20,349 nt of DNA, taken from positions 1 through 20,349 of IMG/VR virus record IMGVR_UViG_3300037165_000025; one strand, written 5' to 3'. A program made the translations under genes and the position numbers. The notes beneath the pieces were generated by a model that did no database searches, was not told the DNA's origin, and saw only the letters and a program-made list of their open reading frames with translations. Shown piece after piece: positions 4,018 to 18,445 of the stretch (position 1 is its first letter; every line of letters begins with the position of its first letter). Source of the DNA: a virus.

Positions 4018-4470
4018 TTAGGCAGTTTTTACTTCAAAAACTTTAGGTGCGGCTTGAACTGCAACTTCAGATTCTTGAGCACGTGGTCCAGAACCAGCTG
4101 CGGCAATGCCGGCATAGTTTTGTGGAACTTGTGCGAGTGCGGCAAGATTTTCAAGAACTTCAATTGGCTGCGCTTTAAGGAATACTTCACCGAGTTGGCA
4201 ACGATTAGTCGCTTTCAAATTGGCAATGATTTCGTCCTTACGTTTTTGCATCATATTAAGACTTGCTTTCAAAACTTCGGCAATACCTTCTGGGGCATTA
4301 TCGATGTATTCTTGTGCTGTCAAAGTTTTTGCAGCTTGGGTTTCAACTTTTGTTTCAGCAGCAGGTGTTTCTGTTTTTACTTCAGCGGCAGCGGGTGCTG
4401 CAGTTTCAGTTGTTGCTGGTGCAGCAGCTTTTGGATCAGCAGCGGCAGCTTCGTTTTGTACTTTAGTCAT
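4018..4470 (-). CDS. Nested scaffold protein from an internal start
   Basis: Within the protease-scaffold gene, in the same frame, ATG at 4470 (residue 328, MTKVQNEAAAADPK) is preceded by a perfect AAGGAG with a six-base spacer (AACGAT). This is a better ribosome binding site than the one of the full gene. It would yield a free 150-residue scaffold: an Ala/Pro/Thr/Glu-rich linker, a helical core (YIDNAPEGIAEVLKASLNMM, MQKRKDEIIANLKA, PIEVLENLAALAQV) and a basic-ended tail. The arrangement parallels lambda C/Nu3, where the scaffold is translated in excess of the protease fusion. Expression is inferred, not shown. Confidence 0.65.
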   Translation of the reverse strand: MTKVQNEAAAADPKAAAPATTETAAPAAAEVKTETPAAETKVETQAAKTLTAQEYIDNAPEGIAEVLKASLNMMQKRKDEIIANLKATNRCQLGEVFLKAQPIEVLENLAALAQVPQNYAGIAAAGSGPRAQESEVAVQAAPKVFEVKTA

Positions 4471-5451
4471 ATCGTTCTCCTTAGATTGGTTAGTAGTTAC
4501 ATTGTCTGTATCCGCAGCCGGTACTATTTTAGTTATTAGTCGAACTTCTTGAGGTTCGCCGGTTAAGGTTACTGCTCCATTGGCATCAATATCAAAAGTT
4601 TGTTGATAAGAATCCCAATCACTTCCATCATATGCACTGTATATTACAACAGTGTTTGTATATCCAATTACCCAGCACCAATCCCACATATCACCTAAAG
4701 CATCATTCAGGGAACTCATAATATCGCCGGACAATAATTCATCGGCAATACTTTGGGAAACAAACTCACGAACTGCTTTCTGTACTTCTATCGCAGGTAT
4801 TGTGGGATCTGTGCATTCACAATTCGCAACTAATTTACCTTTTTCTTGGGTCTTCTTTTTCTTTTTAAACATTTTGGTCCCTTTGTTTACACGTGGTGTG
4901 CCGCATCCATCTTCGACAGAGCAAGCACCAATAGTTCCTTCTTCTAAGAAGGCAAGATGATCTGGCATCACATTACGCCAAATACCTGTATACTCTAATC
5001 CTTTGAATTCACCGTCCTCTTCTTCCACCTCGGTAAAGAAGCCAACAGATACTTCAATCAATTCTTCCGCCTCAACCCGTTCAAATACCCTTTTTATGGT
5101 ATCTGATTTAGAAGCCATAGCTTTATTAAGCCACGCCTCCATCTTTAATTTCTTCCCGTCCAGATGCGTATTGAAGATAGAACCAAACTGGTACTTCTCT
5201 AATACTTTAGGCTGGCCTGCTGAAACAAAGTTATCCCCATCTTTGGGGTGGTTCATAACTACTGGCTTAGTATTCCATCCTTCTGGAAACTTACCGAATT
5301 CAGTTGCCAAACCTAGCTCACCACTATCTTGTGCGGCACCTAGTCTGACACCTTCGATCATTGCAATTACTGGAACGACAAGATATTCAATGCCATCCAA
5401 GGATTGCGTTTTAAATGTTCCGGCCGTTTGTCCGCGTAATGTTTTTCGCAT
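4018..5451 (-). CDS. DUF2213-type prohead protease fused to scaffold domain
   Basis: A 477-residue polyprotein. Residues 1 to about 190 are a prohead protease of the DUF2213/U35 type: VVMNHPKDGDNF with His68, LIEVSVGFF with Ser135, and MPDHLAFL with His165. A Ser plus two His in this spacing recalls the assemblin-like triad. Residues about 207-310 hold a separate alpha/beta domain (MWDWCWVIGY, VVIYSAYDG, FDIDANGAVTL, EVRLITKIVP) that I have seen associated with phage proteases of this kind. Residues 328-477 are an Ala/Glu/Lys-rich, mostly helical scaffold region. The protease should cut the scaffold and itself after prohead assembly. Its ATG at 5451 has only a weak AGGG site, and a promoter lies just upstream. 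Two internal starts (residues 194 and 328) have Shine-Dalgarno-like sequences. Confidence 0.75.
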   Translation of the reverse strand: MRKTLRGQTAGTFKTQSLDGIEYLVVPVIAMIEGVRLGAAQDSGELGLATEFGKFPEGWNTKPVVMNHPKDGDNFVSAGQPKVLEKYQFGSIFNTHLDGKKLKMEAWLNKAMASKSDTIKRVFERVEAEELIEVSVGFFTEVEEEDGEFKGLEYTGIWRNVMPDHLAFLEEGTIGACSVEDGCGTPRVNKGTKMFKKKKKTQEKGKLVANCECTDPTIPAIEVQKAVREFVSQSIADELLSGDIMSSLNDALGDMWDWCWVIGYTNTVVIYSAYDGSDWDSYQQTFDIDANGAVTLTGEPQEVRLITKIVPAADTDNVTTNQSKENDMTKVQNEAAAADPKAAAPATTETAAPAAAEVKTETPAAETKVETQAAKTLTAQEYIDNAPEGIAEVLKASLNMMQKRKDEIIANLKATNRCQLGEVFLKAQPIEVLENLAALAQVPQNYAGIAAAGSGPRAQESEVAVQAAPKVFEVKTA

Positions 5452-9500: not shown

Positions 9501-10857
9501 TTCCTGCCAAATTTTTACTAGCATCAACAAATAAAATTGAATTTGCGGCGGCGGTATTAAAAACTGGCGCAACCGTGCTAAATGTTTGTTTTCCAGTGAA
9601 AGTTCCGGCAGTAGCATAATTGAAACCTATTGCACCAGTGCCGGAATTGTATGTAATTGGGGCTACAGCAGAAAATGAAGCAAGAGTAGCTTTGCCGTTA
9701 AAGGTGTTCCAATCGGTTGAGCTTAAATAACCGTTGGTTGATGTAGTGGCTTGCGATATTGAAATAATACCGGTGGAGTTATTATAACCGATAGGAGAAG
9801 TCGCCGATATGGCTGCTCTTGCGCGAGTATTAGTAAACCATAAATTAGTTGGACTTCCGCTTTCAGCAATGTTATCGGTGTTAAGGGTAATTACTCCGGT
9901 AAGGCTATTTACCGAAGTTACTGAATCGGTATTATCTACTTTATTCCAAGCAGTTCCATTATAAATTGCCCAATCCCCGACTTTCCAATCGGTAATTCCA
10001 TCCAAGTTAGTCGAACCTGGTGTAGTGACAATATAATAATAGCCTTTTGTTCCTGTGCCCGATGCTAAACTAGGAGAATTTGAAGTAGCATTCCATGTGC
10101 CTTGATAAGCTACATCCCCGATAACTGATGCCGGTAAATAACTTGTAGATATTTTACCGCCAGAATCAAGAGGTGCAATTCCATTTGCCGCTCCTGATAT
10201 ACTGGCAATAGCGGCGTTAAATCTTGATTGCGTCCAATACAGATTACTATTCTCAGGTACAACACTTGTATCTAATGTTTGAAAGGTCTTATCACCGCGC
10301 CAGTATTGTGAGGTTGTACCCGCAGTTATGGCTGCTTGCTTATTATTGAAAGTATTCCAATCAGTATGGCCTAAGTACCCATCAACTGAGGCACTAGCTT
10401 GCTGGACTCCTAGGTGGGTACCATCCCAAGTTAAAGGTCCGGCAATTACTGCAACAACAGCTGCAACCGCTAAAGCATTGGTGAAATATTTATTGGTAGT
10501 GCCCTCCGCAACCATATCAGTAGTATAATCACCAGATTGGGTAACTACTATACCCGTTCGTGGAACCCCAGCCGGACCAAAACTGCTCACACCTGATCCG
10601 CCACCACCGCCTTGCTGGATTATCTGAATAACCGATGATATGGTATTTTGCAGAGTAATGGTACATTCAGTTGTAGTAACTACTATACCCGTTCGTGGAA
10701 CAAAACTGCTCACACCTGATCCGCCACCACCGCCTTGCTGGATTATCTGAATAACCGATGATATGGTATTTTGCAGAGTAATGGTACATTCAGTTGTAGT
10801 AACTTGAATCGCATTAGTCTGCTCAATAATCTCTAGTTGTGGATCGTCACAAGCCAT
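6589..10857 (-). CDS. Large fibre protein with duplicated N-terminus and glycine-rich repeats
   Basis: A 1422-residue fibre. Residues 19-52 and 60-93 are a duplicated segment (TECTITLQNTISSVIQIIQQ plus GGGGGSGVSSF). Next come shaft motifs common in phage fibres: NKYFTNALAVAAV, LYWTQSRFNAAI and LWFTNTRARAAI, and DGYLGHTDWNTFNNK and NGYLSSTDWNTFNGK. A middle region (about residues 480-1000) is beta-rich, ending with LTSGVTGILPVANGGSG. Residues about 1017-1336 hold some 13 glycine-rich repeats of the form GGxhxFhxGxGG. The C-terminus GTKFGTATSQKLSLWNATPI then VVQALRNIGAL is a tail-end domain shared by many phage fibres. It probably trimerises and contacts the host. It lies between portal and protease genes, so a head-attached fibre is possible. 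The start has an AAAGG site. Confidence 0.8.
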   Translation of the reverse strand: MACDDPQLEIIEQTNAIQVTTTECTITLQNTISSVIQIIQQGGGGGSGVSSFVPRTGIVVTTTECTITLQNTISSVIQIIQQGGGGGSGVSSFGPAGVPRTGIVVTQSGDYTTDMVAEGTTNKYFTNALAVAAVVAVIAGPLTWDGTHLGVQQASASVDGYLGHTDWNTFNNKQAAITAGTTSQYWRGDKTFQTLDTSVVPENSNLYWTQSRFNAAIASISGAANGIAPLDSGGKISTSYLPASVIGDVAYQGTWNATSNSPSLASGTGTKGYYYIVTTPGSTNLDGITDWKVGDWAIYNGTAWNKVDNTDSVTSVNSLTGVITLNTDNIAESGSPTNLWFTNTRARAAISATSPIGYNNSTGIISISQATTSTNGYLSSTDWNTFNGKATLASFSAVAPITYNSGTGAIGFNYATAGTFTGKQTFSTVAPVFNTAAANSILFVDASKNLAGTSNATLDSAGNLTSTSLFFGNTLTQHVSQSQGSNWGVGLGSGGTLAANTTYYYVYTVLDPMGNESLPSGEMSITTNTVNKSASMFLNLFYSTDGGVKIYRSTTSGSYGANSLLISIPNTNYAQQQYYTDTGTATTAGSPPTTSSYVGFSVDPTGNILFQGGVSGLGGFFNVGFSDNNSQMIFAGVTGAIVNLYGGSITDTPGASGNINLTAADGRIDGSGALTVAYNSTTGTKATIYDIPSFAPTGGNEATAFSLSGDTTNYGNGMVWAGDSTYIYGTYNDGGLSQLILQADANINTALTLSGTTAYFNGDFTANSLNSGIGYIDDTRVFSVSSSYTGNQVLSVLDSSDNIAIGYNGNAGALTIYKPTTFPDNVTLILNPSGSDQNVVYINGNPWVESSGGVVSIGVDYYTEFYGKFGGEVDASILKDISGFAGSAGQIMGNAGGVPAWQAFPSISLTSGVTGILPVANGGSGTSTAFTTGSVVFAGASGVYTYDSNFFYDSTNHRLCLGTATSIEKLTLKGNLAFPASSGGGATYTIYSATSGVGNGDNIQLTASNGFTGGFTGGNLGFTAGNSSAVPNDYGFGNQGGLINFTTGNGADNITGTTSDPVVGGPGGDVNFTGANGGRAAGGSGSTNRGGVGGSVFFTSGNGGATGTNTASGGVIQNAGGQGGQVNFISGDGGSGATGPSFGGTGGPIAFITGNGGAAASGKNGGGSGQLEFLIGIGAATTNATGGASGNITILGAVGGQGTSSGANTATGGAGSSLNATLGAGGAGVMASGSTTSGGAGGSFTFTAGAGGSVTGTGGSTVNAGQGGSLTFIAGASGTLPTTGFTGKNGGNINFTAGAATSSTGYTNTGGNIYFIPGAGSPSGTAGNIFLGQNSSGTTLGNIQIGNAVNIVLGTSTGTKFGTATSQKLSLWNATPIVQPTTAISAATFVTNTSGTLNDTATWGGYTIGQVVQALRNIGALA
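6850..7809 (-). repeat. Glycine-rich repeat array within the fibre
   Basis: This part of the fibre gene encodes about 13 imperfect repeats, 17-30 residues each, with consensus GG-x-(V/I/L)-x-F-x-x-G-x-G-G and variable Gly/Ser/Thr/Ala spacers. Examples are GGDVNFTGANGG, GGSVFFTSGNGG, GGQVNFISGDGG, GGPIAFITGNGG and GGSFTFTAGAGG. One beta strand per repeat suggests a stacked beta or polyglycine-type fold. The DNA is correspondingly CCACC/CCGCC-rich on the plus strand. Confidence 0.7.
10541..10803 (-). repeat. Tandem duplication in the fibre N-terminus
   Basis: Two copies, 10541-10675 and 10676-10803. A 26-base stretch (10541-10566 and 10676-10701) and a 102-base stretch (10579-10680 and 10702-10803) appear identical by eye. 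The left copy carries 12 extra bases (10567-10578) that add Gly-Pro-Ala-Gly. The offset is 123 bases over the long block, i.e. 41 codons, so the frame is kept. Confidence 0.85.
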
Positions 10858-14396: not shown

Positions 14397-15353
14397 TTAC
14401 ACTCCTGTATCTCTGTGGTCTATAACCTCAGAGTTAAAAGTATTAATACGTGGATTCTTATTTTTGTCGACTCGAATAATTAATTCTTGTGCCATTTTCA
14501 TGGTATCAGGATCACTTTCAAGAGCAAGCAATAATTCTTGATCGGAATCACCTTTTGCGGAACCGGCTAGTCCGGCTTTGCTTGCAATAGTACGCAATAT
14601 AACTTCTAATGAGGCATTTGGCGGCAATGAGTTCGGATCTTTACTTGAAGGTACACTCGAACCGAATGGTGTAGCCCCTGAACTGACACGCTGCATTTGC
14701 ATCATAAGCTTCATCAGCTCGATAACCTCTTTAGGCTTGAATTCTTGCTGCGGTCTGCCGGTTTCTAGATCGGTTTCAAACATTTGTTCCAATACTGCAT
14801 CGGCAAAAGCAATATACTTTTTGGATAGTTCATAGTGTTGCTCTTCAACATCCATGATACGTATCTCTTTACGTTTGGCATGGCTGGCGGTGACAAAAAG
14901 ATCGTAAGCCTGAGCACGAGAAATCCAATAGTACAAATGGCAGCAACTGATTAGCTCCTCAGTACTCATGCTTACGATGGTCCTAAGAAGGTGGAGCTGT
15001 CTTACAGGTGCTGCAGCTACTTCCTTCTCTGACGGACGGGGTAAATCAAGATATTGCTTGAAAGCTCGGTATGCTTCCATTGGTTCGTTCTGAAGTTGCC
15101 CCCAAAACGGTTCGGCATTCTCTTGAACAGGGTATCCTTGGGAATAATCTAATGTAGTTTTGGCAATTGCGGTATGATCTGCCTGTTCTTCGGTCGGCAT
15201 TAGACTTAAATTGCCCGGTATAAGGTCTGCGCGGTATATAAACTCAGGAAGGCCAAAATCGTTGATGGGAATCCGGCGGTTTAGGTCTTTCATGACCAAA
15301 GCCTTAGCGCTCATGGGTAGCGCAATGCTATTTTCCGCGACAGTTGTTGCCAT
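14397..15353 (-). CDS. terS: Putative terminase small subunit
   Basis: The 318-residue protein looks like a large small-terminase/DNA-recognition protein. EPFWGQLQNEPMEAYRAFKQYLDLPR, read as an 'EP..AY.AF..YL' segment, is followed by LHLLRTIVSMSTEELISCCHLYYWISRAQAYD, a helix-turn-helix pattern ending in W-x-x-R-A-x-A-Y-D typical of terminase small subunits. A long helix (MDVEEQHYELSKKYIAF) and a Pro/Ser-rich linker follow. The order TerS, DUF6527, TerL, portal supports the call. The ATG at 15353 lacks a Shine-Dalgarno and sits at the predicted transcription start; ATG at 15293 (MKDLNRRIP), with TAAGG eight bases upstream, is a real alternative. Confidence 0.6.
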   Translation of the reverse strand: MATTVAENSIALPMSAKALVMKDLNRRIPINDFGLPEFIYRADLIPGNLSLMPTEEQADHTAIAKTTLDYSQGYPVQENAEPFWGQLQNEPMEAYRAFKQYLDLPRPSEKEVAAAPVRQLHLLRTIVSMSTEELISCCHLYYWISRAQAYDLFVTASHAKRKEIRIMDVEEQHYELSKKYIAFADAVLEQMFETDLETGRPQQEFKPKEVIELMKLMMQMQRVSSGATPFGSSVPSSKDPNSLPPNASLEVILRTIASKAGLAGSAKGDSDQELLLALESDPDTMKMAQELIIRVDKNKNPRINTFNSEVIDHRDTGV

Positions 15354-15359
15354 ACGACC

Positions 15360-15389
15360 ATTATAATATAATTAAGTAAAAATTGTCAA
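15360..15389 (-). promoter_or_regulatory. Consensus sigma70 promoter of the virion operon
   Basis: On the minus strand a perfect TTGACA (15389-15384) and a perfect TATAAT (15365-15360) are 18 bases apart. The expected start of transcription, six to seven bases downstream, falls on the first ATG at 15353. Either the mRNA is leaderless or translation begins at the ATG at 15293, which has a Shine-Dalgarno. Confidence 0.75.
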
Positions 15390-15434
15390 CGGAAATTTTG
15401 GGCATTCTATAAAATAATTTGGTAGCCGTGATTT

Positions 15435-15470
15435 TTGACCTTGAAATGCTATTTTTATGCTATATTATAT
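15435..15470 (+). promoter_or_regulatory. Promoter of the rightward operon
   Basis: TTGAAA (15441-15446) and TATTAT (15463-15468) are 16 bases apart; overlapping TTGACC (15435-15440) with TATATT or TATGCT boxes offers weaker alternatives. Transcription should begin near 15475, just before the first long stem of the leader. It is divergent from the virion promoter about 50 bases away, so the two could share control. Confidence 0.5.
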
Positions 15471-15479
15471 TGTAATCAG

Positions 15480-15731
15480 TTGAGCATTTTCTCCAGCTGG
15501 TTTTAAAAGTGAGAGCCTTACTTCTGTTTCGCTGTATACGGCCGATAGATAAGCTAGCATTTGAAAGACGCTACTAGGTGACCACCGCGGGTTCACTCAG
15601 TCTGCCAGCTGGAGAAAGTTCTTACAAGCTAAAGGCCTTAGTTTAGTAGCCGAGGTCTTGAGGAGTGTCGATACTACGTGTCTGTATTATCCCAATAGTT
15701 ATGCACTGCGACACTTCTCGAATAATTTTAA
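15480..15731 (+). ncRNA. Highly structured leader or non-coding RNA
   Basis: No convincing ORF covers this stretch. A perfect 13-bp stem joins TTTCTCCAGCTGG (15488-15500) to CCAGCTGGAGAAA (15605-15617). Inside it are hairpins at 15507-15523 (AAGTGAG/CTTACTT), 15531-15542 (GCTG/CGGC), 15555-15573 (TAGC/GCTA) and 15578-15596 (GTGACC/GGTTCAC with a bulge). A further hairpin follows at 15626-15644 (AAGCTAA/TTAGTTT), then a 13-pair stem with two G-U wobbles, 15658-15670 with 15709-15721, ending 11 bases before the ribosome binding site of the first gene. I do not match it to a known RNA class. It may be a cis-regulatory leader, an attenuator or a separate RNA. Pairings were found by eye. Confidence 0.5.
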
Positions 15732-15744
15732 AAGAAGGTTAAAT

Positions 15745-16035
15745 ATGAAACGAATATTCAAATATACTCTAGAGGTTGCCGAGGAGCAGGTAATAAATCT
15801 CCCATTCGGTTTTAAGATTCTAAGTATTCAAGTGCAAGCAGGAAAACCTTGCATATGGGTTCTTATAGATGATGCACACGATGGAACAGAGGAAGTGTAT
15901 TTCTATACTATAGGAACCGGACATTCTGCAGATCTCATGCCAAATAACTTTGTAGGAACATACCAATACGGTCCACTAGTATTCCATGTTTTTTATAGGA
16001 ATGGGCAGCAAAGTAATCCTATTCCGAGGAGATAA
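15745..16035 (+). CDS. DUF7352-like phage protein, first gene of the operon
   Basis: I place the start at the ATG at 15745, with AAGAAGG six bases upstream, rather than at the TTG at 15658 that lies in the leader stem. The 96-residue product, starting MKRIFKYTLEVAEEQVINLP, has the pattern of a small phage family (DUF7352): 'IFKY.L......i.LP.g..iL.iq.Q.g.p.iWvL.D', then YTIGTGH, NNFVGTYQYG and LVFHVFY. It is all-beta by eye. No biochemical role is known to me. It is four bases... in practice one base from the next start and heads the operon, so the structured leader controls it first. Confidence 0.65.
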   Translation: MKRIFKYTLEVAEEQVINLPFGFKILSIQVQAGKPCIWVLIDDAHDGTEEVYFYTIGTGHSADLMPNNFVGTYQYGPLVFHVFYRNGQQSNPIPRR

Positions 16036-18037: not shown

Positions 18038-18445
18038 ATGTTATTCACTGGTTATGCATGCGTATTCGGACACGTCGATAATCAGCTTGATATGGTTGTG
18101 CAAGGAGCATTCGAAGGAACTCTCAAAGAACTCGGTGCGCACCCGCTACCGCTATTATGGTCACATGATGAGACAGAACAGATTGGTTGGATAACACACT
18201 TTCGTGAAACCGAATATGGCTTGTATATTGAGGGTGAGATTTGGGAACACACAGTTAGAAATACTACTTTGAGTAAGCGGTTGAAAAGTAAAAAAGTGAA
18301 GGGTTTGAGTATAGGTTATAAGGTGAGAGATTACACGTTAGATATATCCGGTGTGAGAATTATCACTAGGTTAGATCTATACGAAATATCAATAGTGATG
18401 TATCCGGCAAATACTATGGCAACAATAGTTAAGTGCAGTATATGA
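18038..18445 (+). CDS. HK97-type (S78) prohead protease, outside the head cluster
   Basis: The 135-residue product is a compact HK97 family protease. LFTGYACVFGHVDNQLDMVV is the standard start. LLWSHDETEQIGW gives the catalytic His43, VKGLSIGYKV gives Ser91, and LDLYEISIVMYPAN gives Glu116; together these make the His-Ser-Glu triad expected of S78 proteases. The family normally has about 200 residues with a C-terminal extension, so this is close to a bare catalytic core. It lies on the plus strand between a 69-residue and a 61-residue unknown protein, far from the capsid genes, while another protease is fused to the scaffold in the virion operon. Its ribosome binding site is weak (TAGG). Confidence 0.85.
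   Translation: MLFTGYACVFGHVDNQLDMVVQGAFEGTLKELGAHPLPLLWSHDETEQIGWITHFRETEYGLYIEGEIWEHTVRNTTLSKRLKSKKVKGLSIGYKVRDYTLDISGVRIITRLDLYEISIVMYPANTMATIVKCSI

Follow-up and report, generated by a model that had tools for sequence, protein, structure and literature searches.

Layout of the locus

The DNA analyzed here, referred to as the window, comprises 20,349 bases of virus sequence (record IMGVR_UViG_3300037165_000025). The left part of the window carries leftward head genes, encoding a major capsid-like protein, the portal, and the large (TerL) and small (TerS) terminase subunits, and the right part carries rightward small genes of an early type, including those for DUF7352, DUF3846, dCMP deaminase, and an S78 protease domain. 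A structured region is located between the leftward head genes and the rightward small-gene operon, with the following features at and around it:

14397 to 15353, − strand: terminase small subunit (phrog_6299), the divergent neighbor of the leader
15360 to 15389, − strand: sigma-70-like promoter on the terminase strand (12/12 consensus, 18-nt spacer)
15441 to 15468, + strand: sigma-70-like promoter of the rightward operon (10/12 consensus, 16-nt spacer), with a probable start near 15475
15475 to 15744, + strand: putative structured untranslated leader of the rightward operon (from folding, shuffle tests, and tile ranking)
15733 to 15739, + strand: ribosome binding site (RBS) of the DUF7352 gene (GAAGG), with the ATG at 15745
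15745 to 16035, + strand: DUF7352 gene (PF24043, phrog_3848), the first gene of the operon

The original prediction described a structured leader between divergent promoters, with a transcript start about 13 bases before the first stem. Both promoters were recovered; the start is an inferred position near 15475, because sites of the 10/12 type are as frequent as expected by chance (2 sigma-70-like sites observed in the region versus 2.5 expected). The match to the DUF7352 HMM starts at the ATG at 15745, and the leader is therefore untranslated. Inspection by eye revealed no short leader peptide with a good ribosome site in the leader. Together with the fold and the tile ranking described below, the promoter calls support the view that the region between the divergent promoters is a leader that is structured and untranslated. 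An imperfect 21-nt direct repeat (76%) has one copy upstream of the rightward promoter (15415 to 15435) and the other in a leader hairpin (15639 to 15659); it may be due to chance.

Elsewhere in the window, the S78 prohead-protease domain (135 aa; 18038 to 18445, + strand) lies within the rightward small-gene operon, and the late operon encodes a DUF2213 protein (4018 to 5451, − strand) upstream of its capsid gene. A 123-bp tandem duplication (99% identical; 10574 to 10804) near the start of a 1422-aa tail-fiber-like open reading frame (ORF) is either a genuine recent duplication or an assembly artifact. ARAGORN identified no tRNA or tmRNA genes in the window.

Predicted fold of the leader and the source of its stability

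The MFE of 15475 to 15744 was −88.6 kcal/mol (z = −3.95), and none of 200 shuffled sequences folded as well; for 15475 to 15731, the z score was −4.6, with 0/400 shuffles as good. When 257-nt tiles on both strands of the window were ranked, 15475 to 15731 on the + strand came first of 160 (z = −5.9, 40 shuffles). Relative to shuffles, the leader folds better on the + strand than on the − strand (z = −4.6 versus −1.65), which agrees with a role as RNA. Among 130-nt windows the leader was not top-ranked, because stem 1 spans at least 130 nt. The second most structured tile is a strong hairpin at 2240 to 2330 (− strand; −27.9 kcal/mol, z = −4.6) that lacks a U run and lies in the late operon, where it separates the major capsid gene from the gene that follows.

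The predicted elements of the leader, all on the + strand, are as follows:

15475 to 15501, + strand: hairpin that the nascent transcript may form early at its 5' end (−7.6 kcal/mol, z = −2.4), with the 5' arm of stem 1 taking part in it
15481 to 15499, + strand: stem 1, 5' arm (mean pair probability, 0.96), which contains the repeat 15488 to 15500
15500 to 15569, + strand: long irregular arm of a three-way junction (MFE and centroid; interior not above shuffles)
15570 to 15605, + strand: second arm of the three-way junction, a hairpin (MFE)
15606 to 15624, + strand: stem 1, 3' arm, which contains most of the repeat copy 15605 to 15617
15632 to 15659, + strand: hairpin immediately adjacent to stem 2, without an intervening unpaired base (mean pair probability, 0.93)
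15660 to 15719, + strand: stem 2, formed by 15660 to 15670 with 15709 to 15719 (11 pairs, 38-nt loop; mean pair probability, 1.0)

Two details of this architecture had been proposed differently. Domain 1, closed by stem 1, had been given four small hairpins; the MFE and centroid structures show a three-way junction with one irregular arm and one hairpin, followed in the MFE structure by the two abutting stems. The second long stem had been assigned 13 pairs, and 11 of these were recovered; the two outer pairs are possible, but 15658 and 15659 belong to the neighboring hairpin in the MFE structure.

Domain 1 as a whole had z scores of −4.24 on the + strand and −3.28 on the − strand, and its interior alone was no better than shuffles. 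For the stem 2 domain the z score was −3.65, and for its loop it was −0.22. When the stem arms were held fixed, the remainder gave a z score of −1.44, with 35 of 400 shuffles as good. These data trace the excess stability to the two long stems. Comparison with shuffled sequence had been preset as one of two refutation tests of the prediction: the whole leader passed it and the interior of domain 1 did not (z = −0.48). The fold is real as sequence, in the sense of a statistically unusual predicted structure.

The perfect 13-bp inverted repeat from which the prediction started (15488 to 15500 with 15605 to 15617) was confirmed. The arms are separated by 104 nt, and this is the sole exact pair of at least 13 bp within 150 nt in the whole window. 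Of 200 random first-order windows matched in length and composition, 13 contained such a pair (mean, 0.085), so that the pair alone is unusual, not extraordinary; hand scaling from the random windows gives an expectation of about 0.001 exact pairs of at least 13 bp per 257-nt region. Stem 1 extends past the repeat, since 15481 to 15487 pairs with 15618 to 15624. In folds of the growing transcript, pairing in the early 5' hairpin begins at the first presumed base, and the long stem later takes the place of this hairpin. Given the presumed start, the number of free bases at the 5' end is about 3 to 6 in the final fold and 0 in the early hairpin.

The 13-bp arms contain an 8-bp self-palindrome, CCAGCTGG, inside TTTCTCCAGCTGG, and the repeat could be a DNA feature, in which a repressor or other protein binds two palindrome-centered sites 117 bp apart and the RNA stem is a by-product. 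The perfection of the arms, the palindrome within them, and the location of both copies just downstream of the promoter are in keeping with such sites, as is the finding that domain 1 is nearly as foldable on the − strand. Only two copies of the site are present in the window, however, with the next best matches having 3 mismatches; the pairing of stem 1 goes past the repeat, and stem 2 and its abutting hairpin would be left unexplained. We give protein-binding DNA sites a modest chance of being the explanation.

Searches for related sequences and known RNA classes

The original prediction had matched the leader to no known phage RNA class, and covariance searches agree. No match in the window reached the gathering cutoff of Rfam 15, and at relaxed thresholds the best overlapping match scored 12.9 bits against a cutoff of 49. 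Searches of phages and plasmids for DNA similarity found no nucleotide relative, single-protein scans with TerS, TerL, and DUF7352 found no close relatives, and genome scans found nothing close. Pattern scans of IMG/VR returned 2 matches to the stem pair and 4 matches to a 17-mer of the hairpin. On inspection, the former look repeat-like or protein coding and the latter fall within ORFs, and all were therefore judged to be due to chance.

Related loci were collected by two TerL-profile scans of IMG/VR (TerL identity, 38 to 70%). When these loci and 19 whole records were searched with nhmmer and with single-sequence covariance models of the leader halves (R1 and R2), only the window itself was found; this is weak evidence of absence, because such models reach only fairly close relatives. 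Phages with 38 to 60% identical TerL have other content at this position, not the leader. The closest relative (L040; TerL 70% and TerS 42% identical) has a record that ends inside TerS. Brevundimonas phages MaInes and StAshley share the layout, with TerS divergent to small genes, and have no strongly folded leader (z = −1.1). No long leader was found in L010, and L012 has a leader of about 260 nt, but with a z score of −0.23. DUF7352 genes elsewhere lie inside operons, without a leader.

In the relatives, the divergent gap is about 300 to 800 bp, usually precedes an HTH gene, and is mostly unstructured or contains operator-like inverted repeats; a positional equivalent of the leader was rejected for these phages. 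The inverted repeats found in such gaps (L013, z = −5.5; L017, z = −3.3; L025, z of about −3.8) differ from the window in sequence and layout. In many relatives, the gap is followed by a gene for a small HTH protein with the motif YQHVRNVL; no such gene occupies this position in the window. This protein is encoded divergently from TerS across a gap of about 450 to 800 bp in L041, L042, L043, L044, L045, L067, L070, L075, and others. A GTAGCAGTAGTAG-like stretch is common to some TerS/HTH gaps (by eye, L044 and L045), and L013 (870 to 1250) and L017 (800 to 1195, − strand) form a related pair with a hairpin-rich TerS/HTH gap (z = −5.5 and −3.3, respectively, in 180-nt windows). Across all sets searched (phages, plasmids, IMG/VR patterns, and related loci), the leader appears as an orphan with no homologue.

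The lack of conservation in relatives, the ordinary interior of domain 1, and the presence of a perfect 13-bp pair in 13 of 200 random windows would all fit a leader with no selected function, in which a noncoding spacer of recent acquisition contains two long inverted repeats that arose by chance or are relics. Against this, two independent long stems and an abutting hairpin fall within a single 250-nt spacer bounded by a promoter and an RBS, and the leader is the best of 160 tiles. Phages also rarely retain long useless spacers. Absence of function therefore seems to us quite improbable.

Possible roles of the leader

The second stem had been suggested to act as a weak terminator and the leader to be an attenuator, a riboswitch-like sensor, or a stand-alone RNA. 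Stem 2 has a 38-nt loop, is followed only by UUUU, and was not called by the terminator scan; no intrinsic-terminator attenuator (a GC-rich, short-loop hairpin and a U run before the gene) was called anywhere in the leader. Attenuation is unlikely because no terminator follows stem 2. The mean unpaired probability of the RBS at 15733 to 15739 was 0.39 with the leader and 0.34 without it. As the site is about equally accessible in both cases, a simple RBS-sequestering switch is unlikely, and nothing in the leader points to an aptamer or to ligand logic. In ligand-free predicted folds, an RBS-sequestering riboswitch or thermosensor is thus disfavored. A noncoding RNA processed from the operon transcript and acting, for example, on host factors would suit the compact fold, the lack of an Rfam match, and the fact that the leader is not required for ribosome access. 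Such an RNA is very doubtful, given that no terminator follows the leader, that the first RBS comes within 11 to 16 nt, and that no homologue was found in any set searched.

The leader RNA might instead modify RNA polymerase in cis, by put-like or nut-like processive antitermination, so that the operon is read through. In putRNA, two stem-loops lie side by side downstream of an early promoter (PMC9378689). Here, the hairpin at 15632 to 15659 and stem 2 at 15660 to 15719 are directly contiguous, downstream of the operon promoter. The leader shares with the HK022 putRNA this pair of abutting stem-loops and the placement of a structured RNA immediately after the promoter of a phage operon. The likeness is one of predicted layout: the HK022 putRNA is about 70 nt, the leader is 3 to 4 times that length with an extra 150-nt junction before the stems, and the loop of stem 2 is large. 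The abutting stems (15632 to 15719) begin about 157 nt after the presumed start, compared with a distance of about 270 nt between putR and the start of its transcript (PMC9378689). A put-like RNA is defined by factor-independent read-through via binding of the beta' zinc-binding domain.

With lambda-type nut sites (boxA and boxB), the leader shares a boxA-like GTTCTTACA at 15618 to 15626 and a hairpin that comes after it, from 15632. The boxA-like word has 1 mismatch to GCTCTTACA, and 0.14 such matches would be expected per 270 nt. This boxA match is weak, being one core base off and within a partly paired stretch; boxB is far smaller than the hairpin, and no N-like protein was identified here. 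The operon contains two terminator-like sites on the + strand, no more than expected by chance, and there would therefore be little to read through. Polymerase modification thus has a modest chance of being the role of the leader. It is far more speculative that the 5' three-way junction and two abutting stems make the leader the first known member of a class of phage RNAs modifying host RNA polymerase, or some other host factor, in cis.

Our preferred reading, held tentatively, is that the structured 5' leader acts in cis on the rightward operon, with protection of the mRNA 5' end as its most likely effect. This role is favored because few 5'-terminal bases are left free in either the early or the final predicted fold. 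Transcription from the promoter at 15441 to 15468 would start near 15475, and the first 27 nt or so would form a hairpin at once. The 13-bp long-range stem would draw in these nucleotides once its 3' arm was made, leaving the 5' end largely paired throughout. The two further abutting stems would end just before the RBS, which would stay about as open as it is without the leader. The paired 5' end would then protect against pyrophosphohydrolase and against entry of 5'-end-dependent ribonucleases, giving a longer-lived polycistronic mRNA.

Stabilizing 5' stem-loops are marked by few unpaired 5' bases, and the leader has few, given the presumed start. In E. coli, 5'-terminal stem-loops are established stabilizers of the ompA and papA mRNAs (cited in PMC3997798, references 92 to 95). 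The leader shares with the ompA and papA leaders a stem at or near the 5' end, an open RBS downstream, and predicted action in cis on its own mRNA. It differs from them in being much larger, at about 250 nt with a three-way junction and two stems. This amount of structure exceeds what 5' protection needs, because a short hairpin would suffice. The stabilizing role is inferred from position and predicted fold.

The leader is thus an unclassified example, ordinary in kind, and a candidate of one sequence. If confirmed, it would provide an unclassified structured leader for a phage group that has received little study and in which small-gene operons run divergently from terminase. It would also offer a testable case of a phage keeping the message of such an operon stable or readable.
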